Below, in pieces: positions 35,765-48,143 of a DNA stretch of 55,884 bases. The stretch is from Akkermansia muciniphila. Lineage in GTDB: Bacteria; Verrucomicrobiota; Verrucomicrobiia; Verrucomicrobiales; DEV007. Position 1 is the first letter of the stretch. The number at the start of each line of letters is the position of its first letter. Location of the stretch: contig CAMCXS010000036.1 of NCBI GenBank assembly GCA_945883495.1, positions 1 to 55,884 of the forward strand, given 5' to 3'. Under the pieces are notes generated by a model. It did not search any database. It had not been told where the DNA came from and worked only from the letters and a program-made list of their open reading frames with translations. The position numbers and the translations under genes are program-made.

Positions 35765-38700
35765 TCAGCCGACCATGCTATCCCGCTCCCACTCGCGAGT
35801 TCCGAACTCGGCCGCCTTGGCGTCGCTGATGCGGTAACGGTGCATCTGGAGCTGCGCCGGCTTGAAGCCTTGTTGGGCGAGGAATTGGTAGTGGGCCAGC
35901 ACGTCTTCGGGCGTCACTTCGCCGAGGGTGGGCTTCACGTCTTTGGTCATGCCGGTAAGCAGGCTGACGACGATACATCCCGTGATCTCGTTCGGTTGAC
36001 GACCCGCGAGCATCGACATGGCACGAGTATCGAAACTGTCGGCCAGCTCTTGCGAAGCCGTCGGCAGGTAGATCGTTTCCTTGATGGTGCCCTTGGCGTG
36101 GTGCAGTTCGCCACCGGTGGTGAAGAGGATATCGCCCTCGGACTCCAAGCGGCGCACCGCTTCGTGGAGGCGGAACGAGCTAGGGAAGCTGTAATCGACC
36201 ACGATGGTGCCTGGCGCGAGACGGCCGATGTCGAGAATGCCAGGAATGCTGGTGGTTCCGACGATGAACGACGCTTCGTAGACCGGGGCTGGAATTCCTC
36301 CGCCATTCGGATGGATGGAGATCTTGCCCTTGAAACCACGCTTCACGATCTCGTCACGGATCGCGCTGAGCGCGGCTTCCTTCATGTAGGGATCTGCCAG
36401 GAGGATTTCACGCGGCTGCGGGAGCACCTCAAGCGCCAGACGAAGGGCTGCCTTGCCGATCGATTTGAGGCCGATGAAGGCGACGGTTTCGTTGGCGAAC
36501 TTGCGGCCGGTCTTCTCAAGCGTTCCTTCGATCGTTTTGATGATGGTCGCCGTCCGGGTGGCATCGCCGGTGGTGATGGCGGGCAGCTTCTTGCGGCCCT
36601 TGATCCAATCGGTGACACGCACGCCGTCGTCCGTGGCGCTGGGCAGCATGCCGGTCAGCGAGACGGTCTTGGCACCCATGCGGCCTGCCATTTCCAGGGC
36701 GAGGACCATGGAACGTTGCAATCCAGCTTCGTCCTTGAACAGGTCGAGCTCGAACATCGGCAGCACGATCAAACCGATCTTGCCCGACGGAAGCTCGTAA
36801 ACGCTCGACAAGCGCGGTTGGTGGCGGAACCAGCGGGCGATCAACTCGTCCCGGCTCAAGCCACTGACGGCGACGAAGGCATCGGGGATACAGGCCAAAG
36901 CAACGGCGCTGATTTTCGGAAGGGCATCGCCCTCCTCGACGAACTCAAGCTCGATGTGGCCGCTGGCCGCGATGGCGTCGAGGTCAACCTCGGCACCGGG
37001 CAAACCGGCTTCCAAGTCTTCCCGATCCTCGGTGCGATGCAGGTAATCGGCGAGTTGCTCGATGGTCGGATAGCGGAGGAACGCTTCCACCGGGATCTGC
37101 CGGTTGAACGCTTCCGAGGCGTGCGCCAGGATCCGCACCGCGAGCAGGGAATCCCCGCCCATTTCGAAGAAGTTGTCACGAATGCCGACTTTGGCTCCGA
37201 ACGCTTCCTCGAAGATGTCCGAGAGAAGATATTCGCTGGCGGTGGTTGGAGCCACGTAGGCGGTCTCCAATCCGGAGCGATCAATCTTCGGCGCCGGAAG
37301 ACGCTTGCGATCGACCTTGCGGTTCGGCGTGAGCGGGAAGGAATCAACGATGCTGTAGAACGCCGGCCGCATGCTTTCGGGCAAACGCTCCGCGAGGTGG
37401 GCGCGCAGGTCGGAAATCAACCCTTCGGACGGTCCATCAGGAATGATGTAGGCGACCAAGTTCGGTCCACCCGGGAGATCATCGCGCTTGGCGACGACCG
37501 CTTGGCGGACGCGGCTGTGGGCGAAGAGGTGAGCTTCGATGTCGTCGAGCTCCATCCGGACACCACGCAGCTTGATCTGGAAGTCGGCGCGGCCGAGGCA
37601 TTCCAAGTTTCCATCGCGGTTCCAACGGGCCAAGTCGCCCGTCTTGTAGACCCGCTCGGTCTTGCCGTTCGGCAATTCCACCTGGATGAACTTCTCGGAG
37701 GTGAGCGCCGGTTGGTTGTGATAACCGCGAGCCAAGCCATCGCCGCCGATGAAGAGATCACCGACAAATCCGGCCGGGACAGGCATGAGGTGCTCGTCCA
37801 GGAGGTAAATCGTGGTGTTCGCGATCGGTTTGCCGATGTGGATCGTGCCGGTGCCCGGAGCAACTCGGGTGCAGGTGGACCAAACGGTGGTTTCGGTCGG
37901 TCCGTAGAGGTTCCAGAGCTCCTTGCAGGCGGGCAACAGCTGATCCGCCAGGCGACGGGTGAGCGGTTCACCACCCGAGAAGATCCGGAGGTCTTGTTTC
38001 CCGTTCCAACCGCCGTCGAGCAACATCTGCCAGGTGGCCGGAGTGGCCTGCATGACGGTGATGTCGAACTCGTCGAGCATGTGGCCGAGGTGACGGCCGT
38101 CCTTGACTTCATCCCGGCTGGCGATGACGCACTCGGCTCCGGTGAGCAGCGGGAGGTAGATCTCAAGCAGGGAGATGTCGAAGCTCAGGGTCGTGACCGC
38201 GAGCAGGCGGTCGTTCGCGTTGAGCCCGGGAGTTTCCCGCATCGAGCAGAGGAAGTTCACCGCCGCTTGATGAGAGATTTCGACGCCCTTCGGCACGCCC
38301 GTGGAACCGGAGGTGTAGATGATGTAAGCGAGGGACTCGGGACGGAGCCCCTTGACCACCGGACCGCTGTCTGTCGCTTCGACTTCTTCGAGGCAGATGA
38401 TCTTCCAATCGCCCTTCGGCAGGCTCTTGACGAGGCGGCGTTGCGTGACCAGAACCTTCGGTTTGGCGTCCGCCAGCATCATTTCCAAGCGTTGCGCCGG
38501 GAACTCGGGGTCCATCGGGACGTAGCAACCGCCGGACTTGAGGATACCGAGCGTGCCGACCACCATGTCGCAGGAGCGATCCGCGAGCAGAGCGATCGGT
38601 TGATCGGGCCCGGCACCTGCCTCGGCCAAAAGTTGGGCCAGACCGTCCGCCTTGCGGTCAAGTTGGTTGAAGGTGAGGGTATCCCCACCGCAACGAACCG

Positions 38701-41700
38701 CGATTTTGTCGGGCGTGGCCACGACTTGTTCGGCGACGAGGTCGTGAAGCAATTCGTTTCCGGGGTAGTCGGCCTCGGTGGCGTTCCAGCTTTCCAGGAT
38801 TCGGGTCTGCTCGGTGGACGTGAGCAGGTTGATCGCGGAAAGCGGCTTGGCCGGATCCGCGGTGACTTCCCGGAGAATTTGGGCGTAGAGGTCGTTCAGC
38901 GCCGAGATCGTCTCCTTGTCGAAGAGATCGGCGTTGTATTGCCAGCAACCGTAGAGTTGGCCACCGGCTTCTTCGACCACCAGGGTGATCTCGAATTGCG
39001 CCTGGCGCAGGGTGAGATCGACCGTTTCGACGGTCATGTCGCCGATGTGGAACTTGTGTCCGCCTTGGCCGATGAGGAACACGGCGATGCCTTGCTCATC
39101 CATGCCGGGAATCCGCTCCATGGAGAAGGAAACCTGGAAGACCGGGGAACGGCTCGGGTCACGCGGGACGTGGAGTTGGTCAACGAGCTTGGACAGCGGA
39201 TAGTGCTGGTTCTCCAAGGCACCGATGACGTTCCGGCCGGTGGCGGCGAGGAACTCGCGGAAGCTGATCTCGCCCGAAACTTGGCTGCGAACCGGAACGG
39301 GGTTGATGAAGTAGCCCACCACGTTGTGGAGCTCGGACTGATTCCGTCCGGCCAGCGGCACGCCGACGATGAGATCGTCCTGCTTGCAATAGCGGTGGAG
39401 CAACAGATCGAACGCCGAGAGCAGAGCAGAGAACAGGGTGACGTTCTCGGTTTCCGCCAGTTTGATGACGGCTTGGGTGAGCTTCTTGTCGAGCTTGAAG
39501 CCGTGAGCGCCACCGTTGAAGGTTTGCACCGGCGGACGCGGACGATCCGTGGGCAGGTCGAGCACGAGAGGCGCGGCTTCGAGATGGCCCTTCCAGTAGT
39601 CGAGCATCCGGGCGCCGGACTCTCCTGCGAGGTGGACTTGCTCCCAGTTGATGAAATCGTGGTAGCGAGTTTCCACCGTGTCCCACTCGGGCAAACGGCC
39701 GACGCGACGGGAGAAATAACTCTCGATGAGGTCGCGCATCACCAACGTCACCGACCACGCATCCGAGATGATGTGGTGGATCGACAGGAGGGCGATGTGG
39801 GCGTTGTCGGCGGTGCGGAAGAGTTCCAGGCGGACGACCGGACCGTTCTCGAGATTGAACGGCTGGTTCGCGTGTTGCATGACCAGCTGCTTGATCTCGG
39901 TCTCGGAAAGGTTCGTGGCGTCGTGTTCGCGGAAATCGACGGTGCGGCCCTTGCGGATCCGTTGCACTGGCGTGCCGTTGACCGTGTGGAAGGTGACGTC
40001 GAGCATCGGGTGACGCTCGAAGAGTCCCTTGAAGGCCTCTTGCATGGTCGGGATATCGACCAGCGGCGTGATCTTGGAGCTGAACACCAAATTGTAGGCC
40101 GGTGATTGCGGCGCCAATTGGTGGAGGAACCAGAGGGCCTTCTGACCTTCGGTGAGCGGGAACTCGGTGCGATCTTGTCCAGAGACCTCGAACGGAGGCA
40201 GCGCTGCCGTGGGCACTCCCGGACGGGTGGTTCCATCGGCGTCGGCCAATTCGTCGCCAGCGCTAGCCAGCAGCGATTCGAGAATCGGAACGGAGAGTTC
40301 GCGAACGTTGGGTCCGTTGAGAACGGCGCCCATCGGCACGGAAATGCCAAGTTGCGATTCGACCCGGTTCATGAGCTCGATCGCCATGAGGGAATCGAGA
40401 CCGAGTTGGTTCAGCGGAACGTCTTTGTTAATCTTGGAAACGTCGGTTCCGAAGACACCGGCGACTTGCTCCGCCAGGAAGTTCTCCATGAGACCCTGAC
40501 GGGCGTCAGCGGCGGCGTTGATGATTTGGCTGCGGATCGCGCCACCTTCGCCTTCGCCATCTTGGCCGACGACGCAGGAGTAGGTCTTGGAGGCGATCAA
40601 TGCGGCAAAGCGCGATAGCGAGCTCCAATCAATCCGGGAAGCGGCCAAGTTGGAGACGTCCCGAATCATGAAGCGGCGGAAGACGCTGAGCGTTTCGCGC
40701 ATGTCGTAGGTCGAGAGACCGAGAAGTTCGAGGTATTGCTCGGTCTTCTCGTTGCGCTCGACGAATCCGGCGCCCTTGAGCGCGCCCCAGTTGAAGGTGA
40801 GCGCGGGCAGACCCAATGCACGGCGATGCTGGGCAATGCCATCGAGGAAGGCGTTGCCGGCGTTGTAGTTCGACTGCCGGACCGCTCCCATCACCGCGGA
40901 GAATGAGGAGAAGCAGACAAACAGATCGAGCGGGATGTCCAACGTGAGGTGGTGGAGAATCCAGGCTCCGAGCATCTTCGGATGGACGACGCGATCGAAG
41001 CCTTCCTCATCGAGGTCGATGATGTCGAGGTCGTTGATAACCATGGCGCCATGCACCACACCGGCGAGCGGCGCGGGACCAGCTTGGATCGAGGCCACGA
41101 TCTGGCGCATGGCCCCGGGATCGATCACGCTGGCGCGAGCGTCGGTGACGCTGATCCCTTGGGCGCGCATGGCTTCGATTTCGGAAGCGGCGGGCTCCTT
41201 CGGACCACTCCGGGAGACGAGGCAAAGGTGGCGTGCGCCGTTGCGGCTCATCCACTTGGCCAACTCGAAGCCGAAGCCACCAGCTCCGCCCGTGATCAAG
41301 TAGGTGCGGTCCGAACGGAACAAGAACCCTTCCTGGCTGCAAGGCGCGACCTTGATGGACGGGACGTCGAAGCTGAGGACGTTCTTTCCAACGTGTTTGC
41401 CCTGAGCCATGTAGCGGAAGGCATCGACCACTTCCGTGATCGGGAACACCCGGTGCGGCAGAGCTTGATAGGTCTTGGCGAACAGGTGACCTTCGAGCTC
41501 ACGCATCATGGATGCGATGAAGGCTGGTTTGGACTCTAGGTGCTGGGCCAAATCGACCACGAAATAGGAGATGTTATTCTTCAACATCTCGAGGCCGAAC
41601 TTCGAGTTGTTGTAGACGTCGATCTTACCGATTTCGATGAACCGGCCGAAGCGGCGCAAACAGGCGAAGCTCTTCGGAATGAAATCGCCGGCCAGCGAGT

Positions 41701-44700
41701 TGAGCACGCAATCGATGCCCTCGCCGTTGGTGATCCGCATGATCTCGTCGGCGAAGTCGAGTGTCCGCGAGTTCATGACGTGATGCACGCCCATGTCGCG
41801 GAGCAACTGGCGCTTCTCGTCGCTTCCCGCGGTGGAGAAGATCTCCAGACCGAGGTGTTGCGCGATTTGGATCGCGGCTTGCCCGACCCCACCGGTGCCG
41901 GCGTGGATCAGGACGCGCTCGCCCTTCTCCATCCGTGCGAGGTGGACCAACGCGTAATGGCTGGTCAGGAAGACGGTCGGCAGCGTGGCCGCTTCTTCAA
42001 AGCTGAGGTGATCTGGTTTCCGGAACACCACGTCGCGGTGGACGGTGGCGTAGCTGCGGAACGCGTAGGGCGCCATGCCGACGACGTTGTCGCCCGGCTT
42101 GAGGTCAGTAACTCCTTCGCCGACGCGAACCACGGTTCCGGAAACGTCGTCACCGAACCAGCGGATATCGACCGGGTTACCGGGATACATGCCGAGCGCC
42201 TTCATGACGTCCCGGAAGTTGATACCGCCCGCCTTGACGAGGATTTCGATCTCGCCCGGACCGGGATCGATCCGCGGGGTGATGTTGAGCGACAAGTTTT
42301 GCAGGACGCCCGGCTTGTCGATTTCCAGTCGATAGGGCAGCACGCTGCCGTCTGGGAGAATCGCTTCGGTCCGGCGGAGCGGAACTTCTTCCGCTTTGAC
42401 GCGGTGGAGCCGGTTGACGTGACGGACCTGGCCGCGATAGGCGACTTCGAATTCGCTGTCCGGCTTGAGGATCTCCGCCGCCAAATCGTCGGCTTCGAAG
42501 CCGGTGATCGAAGCGTCGAGATCGACGGTGGTGATCGGCCAATCTGGATGTTCGTTGTTCGCCACCCGGCAGAAACCGGTCAGCGGAGCGGTGCTGATGC
42601 AGTGGAGCGGCTCTCCAGCGATCGAAATGCGACCACGGGTCACGACGTAGAGGCGAGGAGCCGGGCTCGGCTTCACCTGATACATTGCGTGAACCAGGAC
42701 GCGGAGTGAATGCGTGCCGTGAGCCTGGACATCCCGCAGTTGTTCGAGCGAGATGTCAGTCCCGGGATCATCCAGCGTCCAACCGTGAACCAAAGTGGTG
42801 GTGCGGTGACCGGCTGTCGCGAGTTCTTGGAAGAGCTGGACCCAGTCTTCCTTGACGCCCGGGTTGACCACGTAGCCTTTGCCCTTGGCGGCGAACGCAT
42901 GGCCGGGTTCCACGGTGACGACTTTGCGGCCGGATGCTTCGAGGAGAGTGCCGAGTTTGGCATCCTCGCTCTTCGCCTTGAGCCAAAGAACGGTTTCGGG
43001 CGAGGCCGGTTCCTCCTGCGTGCCGACGGGTTCCGCCGCTTGCGCCTTGGGAGCGCGCGCTAGGAAGACCGCTTGTTGGCATTCGTTGCTGCGTTCCGAG
43101 CTGACGAAGAAGTCGGCGTCCCGGAAGCCCATTTCCTGGAGCAAACTGATCCAGCGTTCCCGCGGGAGCAGGGCGGAGTTCGGGCGCAGGTCGGTGTCTG
43201 AGTAATACCACCAGCCTTTGAGCAGGCCGAAGACGTTGTTCAGGGTGACCCGCTCATTGGTGACCTCCAGGAACATGAGAACGCCTTCCGGAGCGAGGCA
43301 CGACTGAAGATTCGTCAGGGTGTTCTTCAGATCGGAAGTGGCGTGAATCACGTTCGTCGCCAGGATCAAATCGAAGCCGCCGTTGGGTATGCCCTGAGCC
43401 GAGGGATTCTTTTCAATGTCGAAGGTGGCGTAATCGACGAATGGGTAGTCCGCGAATTGCCGCTTCGCGTCCGCGAGGAACGCCGGGCTCGTGTCGGTAA
43501 AGGTGTATTCCGCCCGATGCGCCGGTAGCATCGGCAGAACGGCACGGGTCAGGGAGCCAGTTCCGGCTCCGACTTCGAGGATGCGGAGGTCGCGACGTGC
43601 GGGAAGCCCAGCGATGAGCTGTTGAATCGCGATGCCGATCAACTCGTTGTTCGCCGGGAAGTCTCCGCCTTGGCGGTAGAACGTCGTCAGAGCATCGATC
43701 GATTTGCCGCCGGGGAAAAGCAGTTCCACAGGATCCGCATCGCCGGTGAGGACGTCGGCCAAAACGGGACCAGTGACGAGTTGCAGTTCAGCCTCGCTGG
43801 CGAACTGCGGATACTCGGCGATGAGCGCTTCGAGGTCTTCGAGAACATCGACGTGAACGGGTTGCTTGACGACCTTCCAGCTTTCGCTGCCGTTTGACTT
43901 CAACCAGCCCGCCGCCGCCAGGGTGTCGAGATGGGCGTTGGTAAGCCTGCGATGGGTAGCTTGGATGCCAAGCGAGCTGATGAAATCATCCAGCTCAATC
44001 GTTTGGCCTGGGGCTGGCGACCAACCCAACTTGAGGAAGGCGTTGATGACGAACTGCTCGACCGCCATGTCGAGACGCGTTTCGAAACCTTCGTAGTAGA
44101 GATTCAGGCCGTGGTTCTTGTAGACGGCTGGCATCGCTGTCCGCACCTCTTTGATCACGTTCGCGATCGGCTTGAAGGCGACTTCGCGTTCCGTGCGGCT
44201 ACCCTTCAGGCGACGTGCTTCCCAGCGGAATTGATAGAACGAGTTGTCGAGTTCCTCTTCCTTCTCATCCTTCTGATCCACGCGATCGACGCGGAAATCG
44301 ACGATCTCCGCGATCTGCCGGCCTTCCTCGGTGAACACGCGGACGTTGGAAATCAGCGACTCGCCATCGTCGAAGTGGATGATGGTGTGAGCCCACAGCT
44401 TGGTCGGAATCGGCTCTTCGAAAATTCGGATGCGGCCGACCGACGCAGGCAGATAGAAGTAATCTGACCCTTTGGCGTCGTCAGGCACTACCTGGGCGCC
44501 CTTCACTCCGTGGAAGAGAGCGTCGAGCACGGCCGGATGGAATCGGTAGCCCTTGAGATCTGACTGAACCGGAGCGGGCACGATGATTTCCGCCAGGGAT
44601 TCGTGCGGGCGGCGCCAGACGTTCTCCAGATGCTGGAAGTTGGGGCCAAACTGATAGCCGGCGTCGAGATAATCCTTATAATAGGCATCATGGTCGAAGT

Positions 44701-47700
44701 GCTTGACCATGCGGGCCTTGATCTCCTCGAAATTCGCTTGGGCGGGAACGGGATGTCCTAGTTTGCGCAAGCGGCCCTGAGCGTTCAGCTCCCACTCCTT
44801 CAGACTGTTCTTCGATGCGTTGCTGTAGACGTAGAACGTCCGATCGCCCTCGTCGAAGACGACGCGGATGGTCGGGATCTTGGACTCGCTGACGAAAAGC
44901 GCCTTTTTGGCTTCCAGCTCTTCCACGCAGTAGTCTTCACCGGGGTAAAGCTCGCGACAGAGCGCCAGGCCGATTTCCCCGTATCCAGAGGCCGGGAAGA
45001 TGATGGAGTCCCAGAAGCGGTGATCATCCAAGTAAGGGAAGAGCCGCGGATCGAGGTAGAACTCGTAGGTCGGCTTGGTGGCGCCGATGCGGATTCCAAG
45101 CAGCGGATGCACGCTGGGACTGCACCGGACGTGCGTGCCTTCCTCGGACTCAAGCCAAAAGCGCTCCTTGTTCCAGGGATAAGAAGGCTGAGGAACGAAA
45201 ACGCCGGCGGCTTGGTTGACGGACCGCCAATCGATCTCACGGCCATGCAGGTGCAGGCGCGAGAGGTTTCCGAGCATCTCGTCGATCTCGACGGTTTTCC
45301 GGGCCAAGGAATGGAAGACGGCGCCTTTGCGCTTGAGCTCTTGAAGGCACTCGTTGATCGGGCCCTGCAAAGCGGGGTGGGGGCCGATCTCCAAGAACAG
45401 CCGTTCGCCACCGCGGATCAGATTCATCACGGCCGGGGCGAAGAGGACCGCCTCCCGGACGTTACGCCACCAATAATGAGCATCGAGCTCTTCCCCGCGC
45501 ATCACGCCGCCGGTGACGGTCGAGATGTAGGGAATCGTCGTGGGACGCGGACGGATATCGCTGAGGACTTCCAACAGCTCGTCCTTGATGGGCGCCATTT
45601 GGAAGGTGTGGAACGCGTAGTTGATGCGGAGAATCCGGACGAACTTGCCGGCTGCTTCCAGCTTGGCGGCGAGTTCTTCCAGAGGGACGCGATCCCCAGC
45701 CAAGGTAACGAGCGTTGGACTGTTCACCACCGCGACTTCGATCACGCCCTCGTAGCCCACAAGCCATTCGCGAGCTTCGCTTTCGCTGAGTCCGACGGCA
45801 TACATCCGGCCTTTGTTGCCATCGCCACCGGTTTGCTCCTGCAAACGGGAACGATGCACGATGACCTTGACGGCATCCGACAACGTGTAGGCGCCAGCGG
45901 CATAGGCGGCGGCGACTTCACCAACGGAGTGACCGACGACCTTGTGCGGGACGACGCCCCAGCTCTTCCAGAGTTCCGTGAGGGCAACTTGGAGGGCGAA
46001 GATCGCTGGTTGCGCGATGTAGGTGCGGTTGATGTTCGAATCCTTCTCGTTCGCCTTGGTCATCTCCTCGAGGAGCGACCAGTCGGCCAGCTTGCGGACT
46101 TCGGCGTCAATCTCCTCAATGGTGCGGCGGAAAACGGGCTCCGATTGGAGCAATTCTTGCCCCATCTTCCACCACTGGGCGCCTTGCCCGGTGTAGACGA
46201 AAACTGTCGGATGCGATTCGTCGGCGGCCGTGCCGTAGTGAACTCCCGGAACGTCGTCGTGCCCTTTGGCGACGTGACGGAGTTTCTCGCGAAGCTCCGC
46301 GACATTGTGCCCGATGACGACGGCGCGCTTGTCGTGATGCTCCTTGCGGGCACCGGCGGAGTAGCAGACCTCGGCGAGATCGAGCGATTCGTCCTCAAGG
46401 AAGCGGCGGTAGCGGTCGGCGTAGGCACGGAGTACGTGTTCGTCCTTTCCGGAGATGGGGAGGACAAGGGGTCGGGCCGCGACTTCGGCTGGCTTCGCAA
46501 CGGGTGCCGCCTGGGGTGGGGCTTCGAGAACGATGTGGGCGTTGGTGCCGCCGAAACCGAACGAGTTCACGGAAGCGACGGGCGGCTGACCGTCTGGAGT
46601 CTTGAGGGGAGTGAGCTCGGTGACGACCTTGAGCTTGAGGCCGTCGAAGTCGATGTTCGGATTGGGCCGCTTGAAGTTGAGGTTCGGAGGAACCATGCCC
46701 TTGTGCAGGACAAGCGCGGCTTTGACCATGCCGGCAGCTCCGGAACCGGATTCGAGGTGTCCGATGTTCGTCTTCACCGAACCAATGAGGCACTTGTTCT
46801 TCTTATCCCGTCCCTGGGAGAGAATGTTCCCGAGCGCGTTGGTCTCGATCGGGTCACCGACCGGAGTCCCGGTGCCGTGCGCTTCCATGTAGGTGACGCG
46901 GGAAGGAGGGAAACCGGCTTGGTGATACGCCTCGACCAACATGGCCGCTTGGGTTTCTTGGCCCGGCACGGTCATGGACGAGGTATGGCCGTCCTGATTG
47001 ATCACGGCGGCGCGCACCGTGGCGTAAATCCGGTCACCGTTGGCCAAAGCCTTGGAGAGCGGCAAAATCATCATCATGCCGGCGCCTTCACCTCGGACAT
47101 AACCGTTGGCGCGGTCGTCGAAGGCGAAGCATTGCCCGCTCGGCGAAAGCATGGTGGCTTTCGAGAAACCGATGGAGGTATCGGGCGTCAGCAAGGCATT
47201 GACACCGCCGACCAGAGCGTAGTCGATCTCACCGGACCAGAGATCTTTGCAGCCCAAGTTGATCGCGACCAAGGCGGAGGAACAGGCCGTGTCCACGGAC
47301 ATTGCTGGTCCTTTGAGGTCGAGCAAATAGGCGATCCGGTTGGAAGCGATCGATAGCGTGGCGCCAGAGTTGGTGTGGACATCGACCTCCTCCGGGCTGG
47401 TCATTTGGACCTGCGCGTAGTCATTTGACGCAATTCCGACGTACACCCCGGTGCGGGTGCCCGCGAGCTTGGAGGGACGATAACCGGCATTCTCAATGGC
47501 TTCCCAGGCGCACTCGAGGAGCCACCGTTGCTGAGGGTCCATGCGGAGGGCTTCCCGTGGAGAGATTCCCCAGAACTGAGCGTCGAACTGATCCAGGTTG
47601 TCGATGAAGCCACCCCACTTGGTGTGCATTTTCCTCGGGATCGAGGTGTCCGGGTGATAAAAACGCTCGCGATTCCACCGGTTGGCCGGGATCTCGACGA

Positions 47701-47830
47701 TGCCCGAACGGCCCTCTTTTAAAAGTTTCCAGAAGGATTCGGTGTCATCGACACCTCCAGGAAAGCGACAACCAATTCCAACGATAGCCAATGGCTCCCG
47801 CTGGGAGGACCCGTTCCGATTCGTATCCAT
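35765..47830 (-). CDS. Hybrid PKS-NRPS megasynthase with AAR-like terminal reductase
   Basis: One uninterrupted 4021-residue multidomain enzyme. Order with key residues: KS 14-440 (DTACSSA, Cys183; EAHGTGT; KTNIGHLE); AT 540-860 (GHSVGE, Ser635; YAFH 738-741); DH 908-1180 (His937, Asp1103; the usual Gly after HxxxG is Asp); C-methyltransferase 1330-1590 (LEVGAGTGS near 1419); structural pseudo-KR about 1610-1810; ER 1843-2150 (HAGTGGVG from 1976); KR 2170-2400 (TGGAGGFG from 2180, Tyr2322); ACP (LGLDSL, Ser2480); condensation 2557-3000 (HHIISD from 2685); adenylation 3020-3520 (YTSGSTG from 3172); PCP (GGDSL, Ser3561); then a domain of about 400 residues resembling cyanobacterial acyl-ACP reductase (TTGDAT near 3753, VAFIGLKSIGK from 3783, Cys3952). 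The order up to the ACP matches iterative highly reducing synthases. The start at ATG 47830 directly precedes KS; an upstream in-frame ATG is less likely. Confidence 0.93.
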   Translation of the reverse strand: MDTNRNGSSQREPLAIVGIGCRFPGGVDDTESFWKLLKEGRSGIVEIPANRWNRERFYHPDTSIPRKMHTKWGGFIDNLDQFDAQFWGISPREALRMDPQQRWLLECAWEAIENAGYRPSKLAGTRTGVYVGIASNDYAQVQMTSPEEVDVHTNSGATLSIASNRIAYLLDLKGPAMSVDTACSSALVAINLGCKDLWSGEIDYALVGGVNALLTPDTSIGFSKATMLSPSGQCFAFDDRANGYVRGEGAGMMMILPLSKALANGDRIYATVRAAVINQDGHTSSMTVPGQETQAAMLVEAYHQAGFPPSRVTYMEAHGTGTPVGDPIETNALGNILSQGRDKKNKCLIGSVKTNIGHLESGSGAAGMVKAALVLHKGMVPPNLNFKRPNPNIDFDGLKLKVVTELTPLKTPDGQPPVASVNSFGFGGTNAHIVLEAPPQAAPVAKPAEVAARPLVLPISGKDEHVLRAYADRYRRFLEDESLDLAEVCYSAGARKEHHDKRAVVIGHNVAELREKLRHVAKGHDDVPGVHYGTAADESHPTVFVYTGQGAQWWKMGQELLQSEPVFRRTIEEIDAEVRKLADWSLLEEMTKANEKDSNINRTYIAQPAIFALQVALTELWKSWGVVPHKVVGHSVGEVAAAYAAGAYTLSDAVKVIVHRSRLQEQTGGDGNKGRMYAVGLSESEAREWLVGYEGVIEVAVVNSPTLVTLAGDRVPLEELAAKLEAAGKFVRILRINYAFHTFQMAPIKDELLEVLSDIRPRPTTIPYISTVTGGVMRGEELDAHYWWRNVREAVLFAPAVMNLIRGGERLFLEIGPHPALQGPINECLQELKRKGAVFHSLARKTVEIDEMLGNLSRLHLHGREIDWRSVNQAAGVFVPQPSYPWNKERFWLESEEGTHVRCSPSVHPLLGIRIGATKPTYEFYLDPRLFPYLDDHRFWDSIIFPASGYGEIGLALCRELYPGEDYCVEELEAKKALFVSESKIPTIRVVFDEGDRTFYVYSNASKNSLKEWELNAQGRLRKLGHPVPAQANFEEIKARMVKHFDHDAYYKDYLDAGYQFGPNFQHLENVWRRPHESLAEIIVPAPVQSDLKGYRFHPAVLDALFHGVKGAQVVPDDAKGSDYFYLPASVGRIRIFEEPIPTKLWAHTIIHFDDGESLISNVRVFTEEGRQIAEIVDFRVDRVDQKDEKEEELDNSFYQFRWEARRLKGSRTEREVAFKPIANVIKEVRTAMPAVYKNHGLNLYYEGFETRLDMAVEQFVINAFLKLGWSPAPGQTIELDDFISSLGIQATHRRLTNAHLDTLAAAGWLKSNGSESWKVVKQPVHVDVLEDLEALIAEYPQFASEAELQLVTGPVLADVLTGDADPVELLFPGGKSIDALTTFYRQGGDFPANNELIGIAIQQLIAGLPARRDLRILEVGAGTGSLTRAVLPMLPAHRAEYTFTDTSPAFLADAKRQFADYPFVDYATFDIEKNPSAQGIPNGGFDLILATNVIHATSDLKNTLTNLQSCLAPEGVLMFLEVTNERVTLNNVFGLLKGWWYYSDTDLRPNSALLPRERWISLLQEMGFRDADFFVSSERSNECQQAVFLARAPKAQAAEPVGTQEEPASPETVLWLKAKSEDAKLGTLLEASGRKVVTVEPGHAFAAKGKGYVVNPGVKEDWVQLFQELATAGHRTTTLVHGWTLDDPGTDISLEQLRDVQAHGTHSLRVLVHAMYQVKPSPAPRLYVVTRGRISIAGEPLHCISTAPLTGFCRVANNEHPDWPITTVDLDASITGFEADDLAAEILKPDSEFEVAYRGQVRHVNRLHRVKAEEVPLRRTEAILPDGSVLPYRLEIDKPGVLQNLSLNITPRIDPGPGEIEILVKAGGINFRDVMKALGMYPGNPVDIRWFGDDVSGTVVRVGEGVTDLKPGDNVVGMAPYAFRSYATVHRDVVFRKPDHLSFEEAATLPTVFLTSHYALVHLARMEKGERVLIHAGTGGVGQAAIQIAQHLGLEIFSTAGSDEKRQLLRDMGVHHVMNSRTLDFADEIMRITNGEGIDCVLNSLAGDFIPKSFACLRRFGRFIEIGKIDVYNNSKFGLEMLKNNISYFVVDLAQHLESKPAFIASMMRELEGHLFAKTYQALPHRVFPITEVVDAFRYMAQGKHVGKNVLSFDVPSIKVAPCSQEGFLFRSDRTYLITGGAGGFGFELAKWMSRNGARHLCLVSRSGPKEPAASEIEAMRAQGISVTDARASVIDPGAMRQIVASIQAGPAPLAGVVHGAMVINDLDIIDLDEEGFDRVVHPKMLGAWILHHLTLDIPLDLFVCFSSFSAVMGAVRQSNYNAGNAFLDGIAQHRRALGLPALTFNWGALKGAGFVERNEKTEQYLELLGLSTYDMRETLSVFRRFMIRDVSNLAASRIDWSSLSRFAALIASKTYSCVVGQDGEGEGGAIRSQIINAAADARQGLMENFLAEQVAGVFGTDVSKINKDVPLNQLGLDSLMAIELMNRVESQLGISVPMGAVLNGPNVRELSVPILESLLASAGDELADADGTTRPGVPTAALPPFEVSGQDRTEFPLTEGQKALWFLHQLAPQSPAYNLVFSSKITPLVDIPTMQEAFKGLFERHPMLDVTFHTVNGTPVQRIRKGRTVDFREHDATNLSETEIKQLVMQHANQPFNLENGPVVRLELFRTADNAHIALLSIHHIISDAWSVTLVMRDLIESYFSRRVGRLPEWDTVETRYHDFINWEQVHLAGESGARMLDYWKGHLEAAPLVLDLPTDRPRPPVQTFNGGAHGFKLDKKLTQAVIKLAETENVTLFSALLSAFDLLLHRYCKQDDLIVGVPLAGRNQSELHNVVGYFINPVPVRSQVSGEISFREFLAATGRNVIGALENQHYPLSKLVDQLHVPRDPSRSPVFQVSFSMERIPGMDEQGIAVFLIGQGGHKFHIGDMTVETVDLTLRQAQFEITLVVEEAGGQLYGCWQYNADLFDKETISALNDLYAQILREVTADPAKPLSAINLLTSTEQTRILESWNATEADYPGNELLHDLVAEQVVATPDKIAVRCGGDTLTFNQLDRKADGLAQLLAEAGAGPDQPIALLADRSCDMVVGTLGILKSGGCYVPMDPEFPAQRLEMMLADAKPKVLVTQRRLVKSLPKGDWKIICLEEVEATDSGPVVKGLRPESLAYIIYTSGSTGVPKGVEISHQAAVNFLCSMRETPGLNANDRLLAVTTLSFDISLLEIYLPLLTGAECVIASRDEVKDGRHLGHMLDEFDITVMQATPATWQMLLDGGWNGKQDLRIFSGGEPLTRRLADQLLPACKELWNLYGPTETTVWSTCTRVAPGTGTIHIGKPIANTTIYLLDEHLMPVPAGFVGDLFIGGDGLARGYHNQPALTSEKFIQVELPNGKTERVYKTGDLARWNRDGNLECLGRADFQIKLRGVRMELDDIEAHLFAHSRVRQAVVAKRDDLPGGPNLVAYIIPDGPSEGLISDLRAHLAERLPESMRPAFYSIVDSFPLTPNRKVDRKRLPAPKIDRSGLETAYVAPTTASEYLLSDIFEEAFGAKVGIRDNFFEMGGDSLLAVRILAHASEAFNRQIPVEAFLRYPTIEQLADYLHRTEDREDLEAGLPGAEVDLDAIAASGHIELEFVEEGDALPKISAVALACIPDAFVAVSGLSRDELIARWFRHQPRLSSVYELPSGKIGLIVLPMFELDLFKDEAGLQRSMVLALEMAGRMGAKTVSLTGMLPSATDDGVRVTDWIKGRKKLPAITTGDATRTATIIKTIEGTLEKTGRKFANETVAFIGLKSIGKAALRLALEVLPQPREILLADPYMKEAALSAIRDEIVKRGFKGKISIHPNGGGIPAPVYEASFIVGTTSIPGILDIGRLAPGTIVVDYSFPSSFRLHEAVRRLESEGDILFTTGGELHHAKGTIKETIYLPTASQELADSFDTRAMSMLAGRQPNEITGCIVVSLLTGMTKDVKPTLGEVTPEDVLAHYQFLAQQGFKPAQLQMHRYRISDAKAAEFGTREWERDSMVG

Positions 47831-48143
47831 GCGTGCAGCTTGCAGATCTAATTCCTTACGTCCCCAACAACCTAGGGCCGGACCGGTGCCTACGGAGTTC
47901 AACCCTTTGGCCCCGGGGTGTCGGACTTACACGGGGTTTTCCGGTGGAGTCAAATTTGAAAATCTACCCGTCGCCAGTCGCCGGTGTTCGGCGGACTCCA
48001 GGTTCTTGAGGTGACAAGGGAGAACGAACATGATTCTGGGAATCAAAAGAAATTCCGGAATCACTCAAATATCGCCGTTCAAAAATGAGCGTTTCTTTGC
48101 ATTTCCGTGTTGGTCTGAACGTCTAATCGAGCGATCTTTTCTT
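47831..48143. promoter_or_regulatory. Divergent intergenic region upstream of the megasynthase
   Basis: This 313-base gap separates the minus-strand megasynthase from the plus-strand small-protein gene and must hold both promoters. It becomes AT-richer toward 48000-48140. I found no convincing -35/-10 pair or operator-like inverted repeat, so specific sites are not claimed. Confidence 0.4.

Follow-up and report, generated by a model that had tools for sequence, protein, structure and literature searches.

Fungal highly reducing (HR) PKS-NRPS hybrids, represented here by PsoA and, for the PKS part, by LovB, release their products through an SDR reductase or a Dieckmann cyclase domain. Two further points of reference are the cyanobacterial acyl-ACP reductases, which are stand-alone enzymes, and the polycyclic tetramate macrolactam (PTM) synthases, whose adenylation code is of the ornithine type. 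The latter are bacterial monomodular iterative systems that, as set out in the accessible portion of one report, unite one PKS module and one NRPS module in the architecture KS-AT-DH-KR-ACP-C-A-PCP-TE (PMC10308959). The same portion describes an uncharacterised monomodular clade of 379 KSs, with RefSeq relatives in Verrucomicrobia and other groups, whose architecture is called PTM-like. As for chain release, a domain of the vatiamide and hectoramide synthetases, related to the TAD of the carmabin pathway, is presented in the available part of its description as putatively offloading via terminal amidation, with mechanism and enzymology unstudied at that date (PMC10949194).

The gene described here lies on the minus strand of the window (the whole stretch of 55,884 nucleotides analysed) as a single uninterrupted ORF, 35765..47902, of 4045 aa counted from a TTG start. 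Its first ATG is residue 25, at window position 47830, which agrees with the end coordinate of an earlier note on this DNA and gives a megasynthase gene at 35765..47830 encoding 4,021 aa. Two relatives with KSs 96 and 94% identical come from contigs of named Verrucomicrobia MAGs, and the window genome is therefore Verrucomicrobial. Pfam and motif scans yield the domain order KS-AT-DH-cMT-psiKR-ER-KR-ACP-C-A-PCP-release, all on the minus strand. The ketosynthase with its C-terminal extension (46316..47797; residues 36-529; PF00109, PF02801, PF16197) carries DTACSS, EAHGTGT and KTNIGH, and the acyltransferase (45245..46204; residues 567-886; PF00698), which we guess to be of malonyl type, carries GHSVG and YAFH. 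In the dehydratase (44267..45109; residues 932-1212; PF21089, PF14765) the histidine is kept in DHRFWDSIIFP, where Asp stands at the Gly position of the textbook motif HxxxGxxxxP; this Asp is present in all eight motif variants among the 30 rows of the family alignment. The C-methyltransferase region (43103..44185; PF08242 at residues 1442-1542) has LEVGAGTG, conserved as LE(V/I)GAGTG in 30/30 rows, and is followed by a pre-ER region (42413..42985; PF21394 at residues 1657-1800) that we read as a structural pseudo-KR, a label of our own; it is the least conserved part of the gene, with the highest dN/dS of 12 segments in both window pairs. Beyond it lie the enoylreductase (41363..42325; residues 1881-2176; PF08240, PF00107, PF13602; HAGTGGVG), the ketoreductase (40583..41320; residues 2200-2376; PF08659; GGAGGFG and YNAGN) and the acyl carrier protein (40268..40495; residues 2476-2537; PF00550; LGLDS). 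The NRPS module comprises a condensation domain (38798..40180; residues 2579-3035; PF00668; HHIISDAWS), an adenylation domain (37298..38740; residues 3057-3529; PF00501, PF13193; TSGSTG, YGPTE and YKTGD) and a peptidyl carrier protein (37028..37255; PF00550, E 3e-14; GGDS), which Pfam places immediately before a TAD-type release domain (35768..36940). One intact bacterial ORF with a complete beta-processing set (DH, cMT, ER and KR), as the earlier note had described it, is thus confirmed by Pfam and motifs.

This architecture differs from that of the PTM synthases in having a cMT and an ER and an adenylation code that is not of the ornithine type, and no TE family was found in the C-terminal part. 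The PTM architecture is therefore not matched, and we rejected this assignment. A PTM-type synthase would agree with the published PTM-like reading of a monomodular clade that reaches Verrucomicrobia, as given in the part of the source available (PMC10308959), but in view of the added domains and the different C-terminus we find it barely credible.

The PKS module also stands alone, as had been claimed. The contig holds one KS, and no other copy of the gene's PKS or NRPS segments was detected at E 1e-4, with a positive control run, in the remaining window or beside the gene in 29 relatives, whose flanks mostly extend about 4 kb a side (46/58 sides at least 3,500 bp, 5 below 1,000 bp); within those flanks, neighbouring genes supply no further modules. 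Among the 20 of 105 listed window ORFs covered by the Pfam scan, the neighbours are outer-membrane efflux, DUF7133, PPDK, lamin-tail, RtcB-like, GlcN isomerase/PIG-L, secretin, CoaE and Rho proteins. Upstream lie two genes that we interpret as encoding malate dehydrogenase and 4-alpha-glucanotransferase; either one is found again in 15 relatives. The window further encodes a TIR-domain protein (PF13676; 18670-19587, minus strand).

Like the fungal HR-PKS-NRPS hybrids, the window gene is a single gene with a single NRPS module, and the KS-AT-DH, MT, KR-ACP and C-A-PCP segments of PsoA align with it in the same order. The likeness to fungal enzymes proposed in the earlier note therefore stands for the domain order within one protein; a fungal origin is not supported by the KS scores or by the TAD-type end, which takes the place of an SDR reductase or Dieckmann cyclase. 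Nor is the PKS order diagnostic of fungi, since KS-AT-DH-MT-ER-KR-ACP also occurs in a cyanobacterial (Gloeocapsa) multi-PKS locus and in a Paraburkholderia capsule-locus PKS. Single-KS bit scores against the PDB were 462 for CurL, 456 for PikA1 and 386-393 for MAS, compared with 346 for LovB and 327 for PsoA; the top PDB row, 7zma, is a sum of two KSs (347 + 335). The best PDB matches of the KS, ER and MT include curacin enzymes, which we take to be modular.

Two KS trees were compared, the first with 50 rows (14/30 orthologue rows) and the second with 48 rows (9/30), the latter also without L081, 7zma, L092_2, L093_3 and L090_3; LovB and PsoA were the only two fungal rows. In both trees the orthologue KSs form one clade, sister to a shorter PKS of the family (100/97 and 89/99), and LovB and PsoA pair by themselves at 100/100. 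The modular rows were themselves unresolved in the first tree, where fungal, Verrucomicrobial and Deinococcus HR-PKSs formed a clade (88/94) that was not retained as such in the second. There, a modular clade is recovered that excludes the KS (98/98); the KS shares an unresolved set with the fungal pair and with PKSs of Deinococcus, of Bacteroidota and of the proteobacterial capsule type. AU tests, for clades chosen after the first tree was known, rejected neither a fungal sister relation (p-AU 0.206) nor a union of the KS with the modular clade (p 0.342). A fungal origin, or a recent HR-PKS-NRPS ancestor in common with fungal enzymes, could draw on that first p-value, on the PsoA alignment and on the clade of the first tree. 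We consider it very improbable, given that bacterial KSs score higher, that LovB and PsoA keep to a pair of their own apart from the window KS, that release is of the TAD type, and that the GC and codon use of the gene resemble those of 13 other window genes (codon r 0.915). The GC and codon comparison with neighbours suggested in the earlier note thus finds the gene ordinary, and recent transfer into the window was discarded on this comparison with 13 window genes only.

On iterative versus modular use the KS evidence leaves room for iteration but is not firm: the grouping with modular synthases that would have contradicted the earlier note did not appear in the second tree, although such a union was not rejected. 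It is conceivable that the PKS module, instead of truly iterating, extends a fatty acyl starter by one or two rounds only, in the manner of modular lipopeptide systems, and both the AU result and the curacin matches are compatible with this. We nevertheless judge it unlikely, as the sole AMP-binding domain in the protein is that of the NRPS module, no other PKS or NRPS segment was matched in the window or in the relatives' flanks, and the KS lies outside the modular clade. We infer, instead, that the PKS module is used iteratively.

The final 391 aa of the protein matched no Pfam family up to E 0.1; they match solved structures at E 9e-66 (phmmer). A model built from 30 family sequences (pLDDT 89) has as its closest structure the entry 'TAD from Carmabin Biosynthetic Pathway' (Z about 50, 35% identity) and as its second closest a cyanobacterial acyl-ACP reductase, which shares the predicted fold (Z about 29) but only 19-20% identity. 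No paper on the TAD structure was found in the literature searched. Cys3976, invariant in 30/30 rows, aligns with a cysteine that is shown bonded to dephospho-CoA in 9e56 (Cys2238, in a numbering that we derived from the alignment). The domain thus resembles the TADs of the carmabin, vatiamide and hectoramide synthetases in its C-terminal position after the PCP, in its fold and in the aligned cysteine, whereas here it is fused to a lone HR-PKS in a Verrucomicrobial host and its motifs are altered. TTGH of the carmabin, Pantoea and two Streptomyces sequences is replaced by TTGD (28/30 rows) or TTGN (2/30), and (V/I)DDS of the same four TAD-type relatives by VDYS (30/30), it being our own reading of these four sequences that TTGH and DDS define the family. 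In addition, the second glycine of GxGxxG (window 36455-36472, residues 3811-3816), present in 25/30 rows, is Lys in the three genomes of the window's genus. Consequently, amidation is not simply transferable from known TADs, and we assign the release domain to the TAD type by sequence and predicted fold, not by chemistry.

A sulfotransferase, such as the one described below, requires a hydroxyl or an amine. This requirement would suit a reductase of the acyl-ACP reductase or PigE type, whose product would be an aldehyde or, if reduced further, an alcohol open to sulfation by the sulfotransferase. The shared acyl-ACP reductase fold, a weak similarity to PigE (E 1.8e-7) and the departure of TTGD and VDYS from other TAD-type sequences point the same way, as does the available part of an account in which the N-terminal domain of PigE is described as a thioester reductase with homology to acyl-ACP reductase (PMC8341465). 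A reductase is a realistic possibility, yet we lean against it because the carmabin TAD is by far the nearest structure and the second glycine of the nucleotide motif has been lost in the window's genus. TAD-type domains outside the phylum were seen via plasmid records only (3 records). In a Streptomyces plasmid NRPS/PKS (L081:9243-21020), which has one KS, two C domains and two AMP-binding domains, the last ~400 aa form a TAD-type domain with 29% identity and the aligned cysteine.

The nine code positions of the adenylation domain read DILQISLVW in the window gene and DILQICLVW in 20/30 rows, varying over the 30 rows as D-I-(L/M)-Q-(I/V/L/A)-(C/S)-(L/M)-V-W. In the accessible part of one source the glycine code is listed as DILQLGMIWK (PMC12283262), from which the C/S at position 301 departs; glycine as the substrate is a tentative guess from the code, which a PDB search with the A domain did not decide either way. 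Considering the domains and motifs, the predicted release fold, conservation across the family, purifying selection and the co-occurrence of a sulfotransferase, we regard it as fairly probable that the gene encodes a monomodular bacterial HR-PKS with one NRPS module and TAD-type release, working iteratively on a reduced, possibly branched N-acyl amino-acid derivative that is probably sulfated. By established PKS and NRPS chemistry, from which iteration, release and sulfation are extrapolated, the PKS module would be used several times with malonyl-CoA and with KR, DH and ER processing, and some rounds would be methylated by the cMT, to leave an acyl chain that is reduced and possibly branched. 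Condensation by the C domain would couple this chain to the amino acid that the A domain loads, a small one in keeping with its glycine-like code. The TAD-like domain may then take the chain onto Cys3976 and release it, probably as a primary amide (an N-acyl amino-acid amide), with an aldehyde or alcohol as the alternative, and a dedicated sulfotransferase would probably sulfate a hydroxyl. The fuller proposal is that a single gene, together with one sulfotransferase, supplies this family with a branched N-acyl amino-acid amide (or amino alcohol) in sulfated form, as a constitutive, lineage-typical lipid, and that the TAD-derived domain, with its own active-site signature, has a release chemistry unlike that of cyanobacterial TADs; taken in all its parts, this is speculative and rather unlikely.

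Of 189 genomes of the order searched with the KS, 109 gave matches. Among the matches listed, the window's family outside its own genus shows a group of KSs with 68-76% identity that mostly belong to frames of around 4,000 aa; in many other genomes of the order the frames are close to 2,600 aa and the KSs 50-55% identical. All 12 segments are present by blastp in 29/29 full-length relatives, which were picked because their frame is about 4,000 aa. Over the gene, dN/dS is 0.044 and 0.053 against two same-genus relatives; a pair from another genus gives 0.119. Given the value of 0.044 and the retention of all segments in the full-length relatives, the gene is not a chance arrangement. The survey of Verrucomicrobiota genomes that the earlier note had recommended found the TAD, by profile search, in 50/74 genomes of the family (34/41 good ones, 11/18 genera; 24/74 without it), and in 0/386 other sampled genomes of the phylum by single-sequence and profile searches. 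We take this sample to have included none of the other members of the window's family, and for this reason all 74 family genomes were searched.

The TAD is accompanied across the family by a sulfotransferase (PF13469 by Pfam for L043 and L062). This gene lies 3 bp downstream of the megasynthase gene in loci L062, L067, L068 and L069 and 18 bp downstream in L043, and is divergent to it in L044, so that the fetched loci represent three genera with the downstream and one with the divergent arrangement. Over the 74 family genomes, 48 have both TAD and sulfotransferase, 2 the TAD alone (G523, 81% complete; G534, 52%), 2 the sulfotransferase alone (G532, G544) and 22 neither (Fisher 1.9e-14), with related genomes treated as independent and the sulfotransferase chosen for the test after it had been noticed next to the gene. 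The association persists when the five linked genera are excluded (38/2/2/15, p 7.6e-10) and at genus level (p 0.0004; 0.0047 without the linked genera). Among genomes at least 90% complete (n=43), the sulfotransferase is present in 35/35 with the TAD and in 1/8 without it. By coordinates, it adjoins the gene in 10/48 genomes with both (five genera) and lies apart in 38/48, some of them on broken contigs; the window genome has one PF13469 gene, the tracked sulfotransferase, on another contig. Comparison genes tracked the TAD far less well (GDSL hydrolase 42/8/12/12, p 0.004) or not significantly (porin, p 0.29), and DUF7133, present in 74/74 family genomes, was of no use for comparison. The GDSL hydrolase was rejected as a partner on these counts, although it stands directly downstream in 12/29 fetched loci. 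In 5/18 fetched sulfotransferase loci (L141, L144, L145, L153, L154) the unlinked sulfotransferase adjoins a gene that we read as LpxB-like, a neighbour that hints at an envelope-lipid role. Given this neighbour and its unlinked position, the sulfotransferase may serve another lipid. Two further, distinct HR-PKS genes of the family likewise have a sulfotransferase close by, with one ORF intervening in L071 and directly adjacent in L078.

Several other bacterial clusters share parts of this architecture. The single-module HR-PKSs of the Paraburkholderia capsule locus, of Deinococcus plasmids and of Verrucomicrobia (about 2,600 aa) have the HR-PKS domain set (order from Pfam for L125 and L083) and KSs 51-54% identical to that of the window gene; unlike it, they carry no NRPS module in the same protein, and Deinococcus QL22 has one in separate genes. 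The Deinococcus plasmids (L083, L084) carry a split analogue, in which a single-module HR-PKS is accompanied by condensation, thioester reductase, aminotransferase and PPTase functions on genes of their own; in L083 there is also an adenylation domain that comes with a nitroreductase domain. Verrucomicrobia have another recurring PKS cluster (L073, L074, L077; also L075, L076), in which an HR-PKS of 2,445-2,585 aa precedes a condensation-domain protein that stands on its own (by Pfam in L073 only); in L073, L074 and L077 we also read one gene as desaturase-like and a divergent one as asparagine-synthase-like. The window genome itself encodes a second PKS-NRPS (L070, G000:C6:22500-38000) of 3,286 aa, with a class III aminotransferase between the AT and C domains, which adjoins a gene that we read as PPTase-like.

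Since a monomodular Verrucomicrobial KS clade is already in print, in the portion of the source available (PMC10308959), the window gene does not found a new category; by comparison of architectures, it is set apart by its cMT, ER and release domain, and these differences make it a variant. No printed description of a gene of this type with cMT, ER and TAD-type release was found in the open-licence literature. The layout of fungal HR-PKS-NRPS enzymes thus exists as a conserved bacterial gene, TAD-type release extends beyond cyanobacteria with altered motifs, and the prediction made here differs from the published PTM reading of Verrucomicrobial monomodular PKSs. The gene offers a one-gene path to a reduced lipoamino product that can be put to the test, and its occurrence across most members of a single Verrucomicrobial family suggests a lipid of the lineage rather than an occasional antibiotic.
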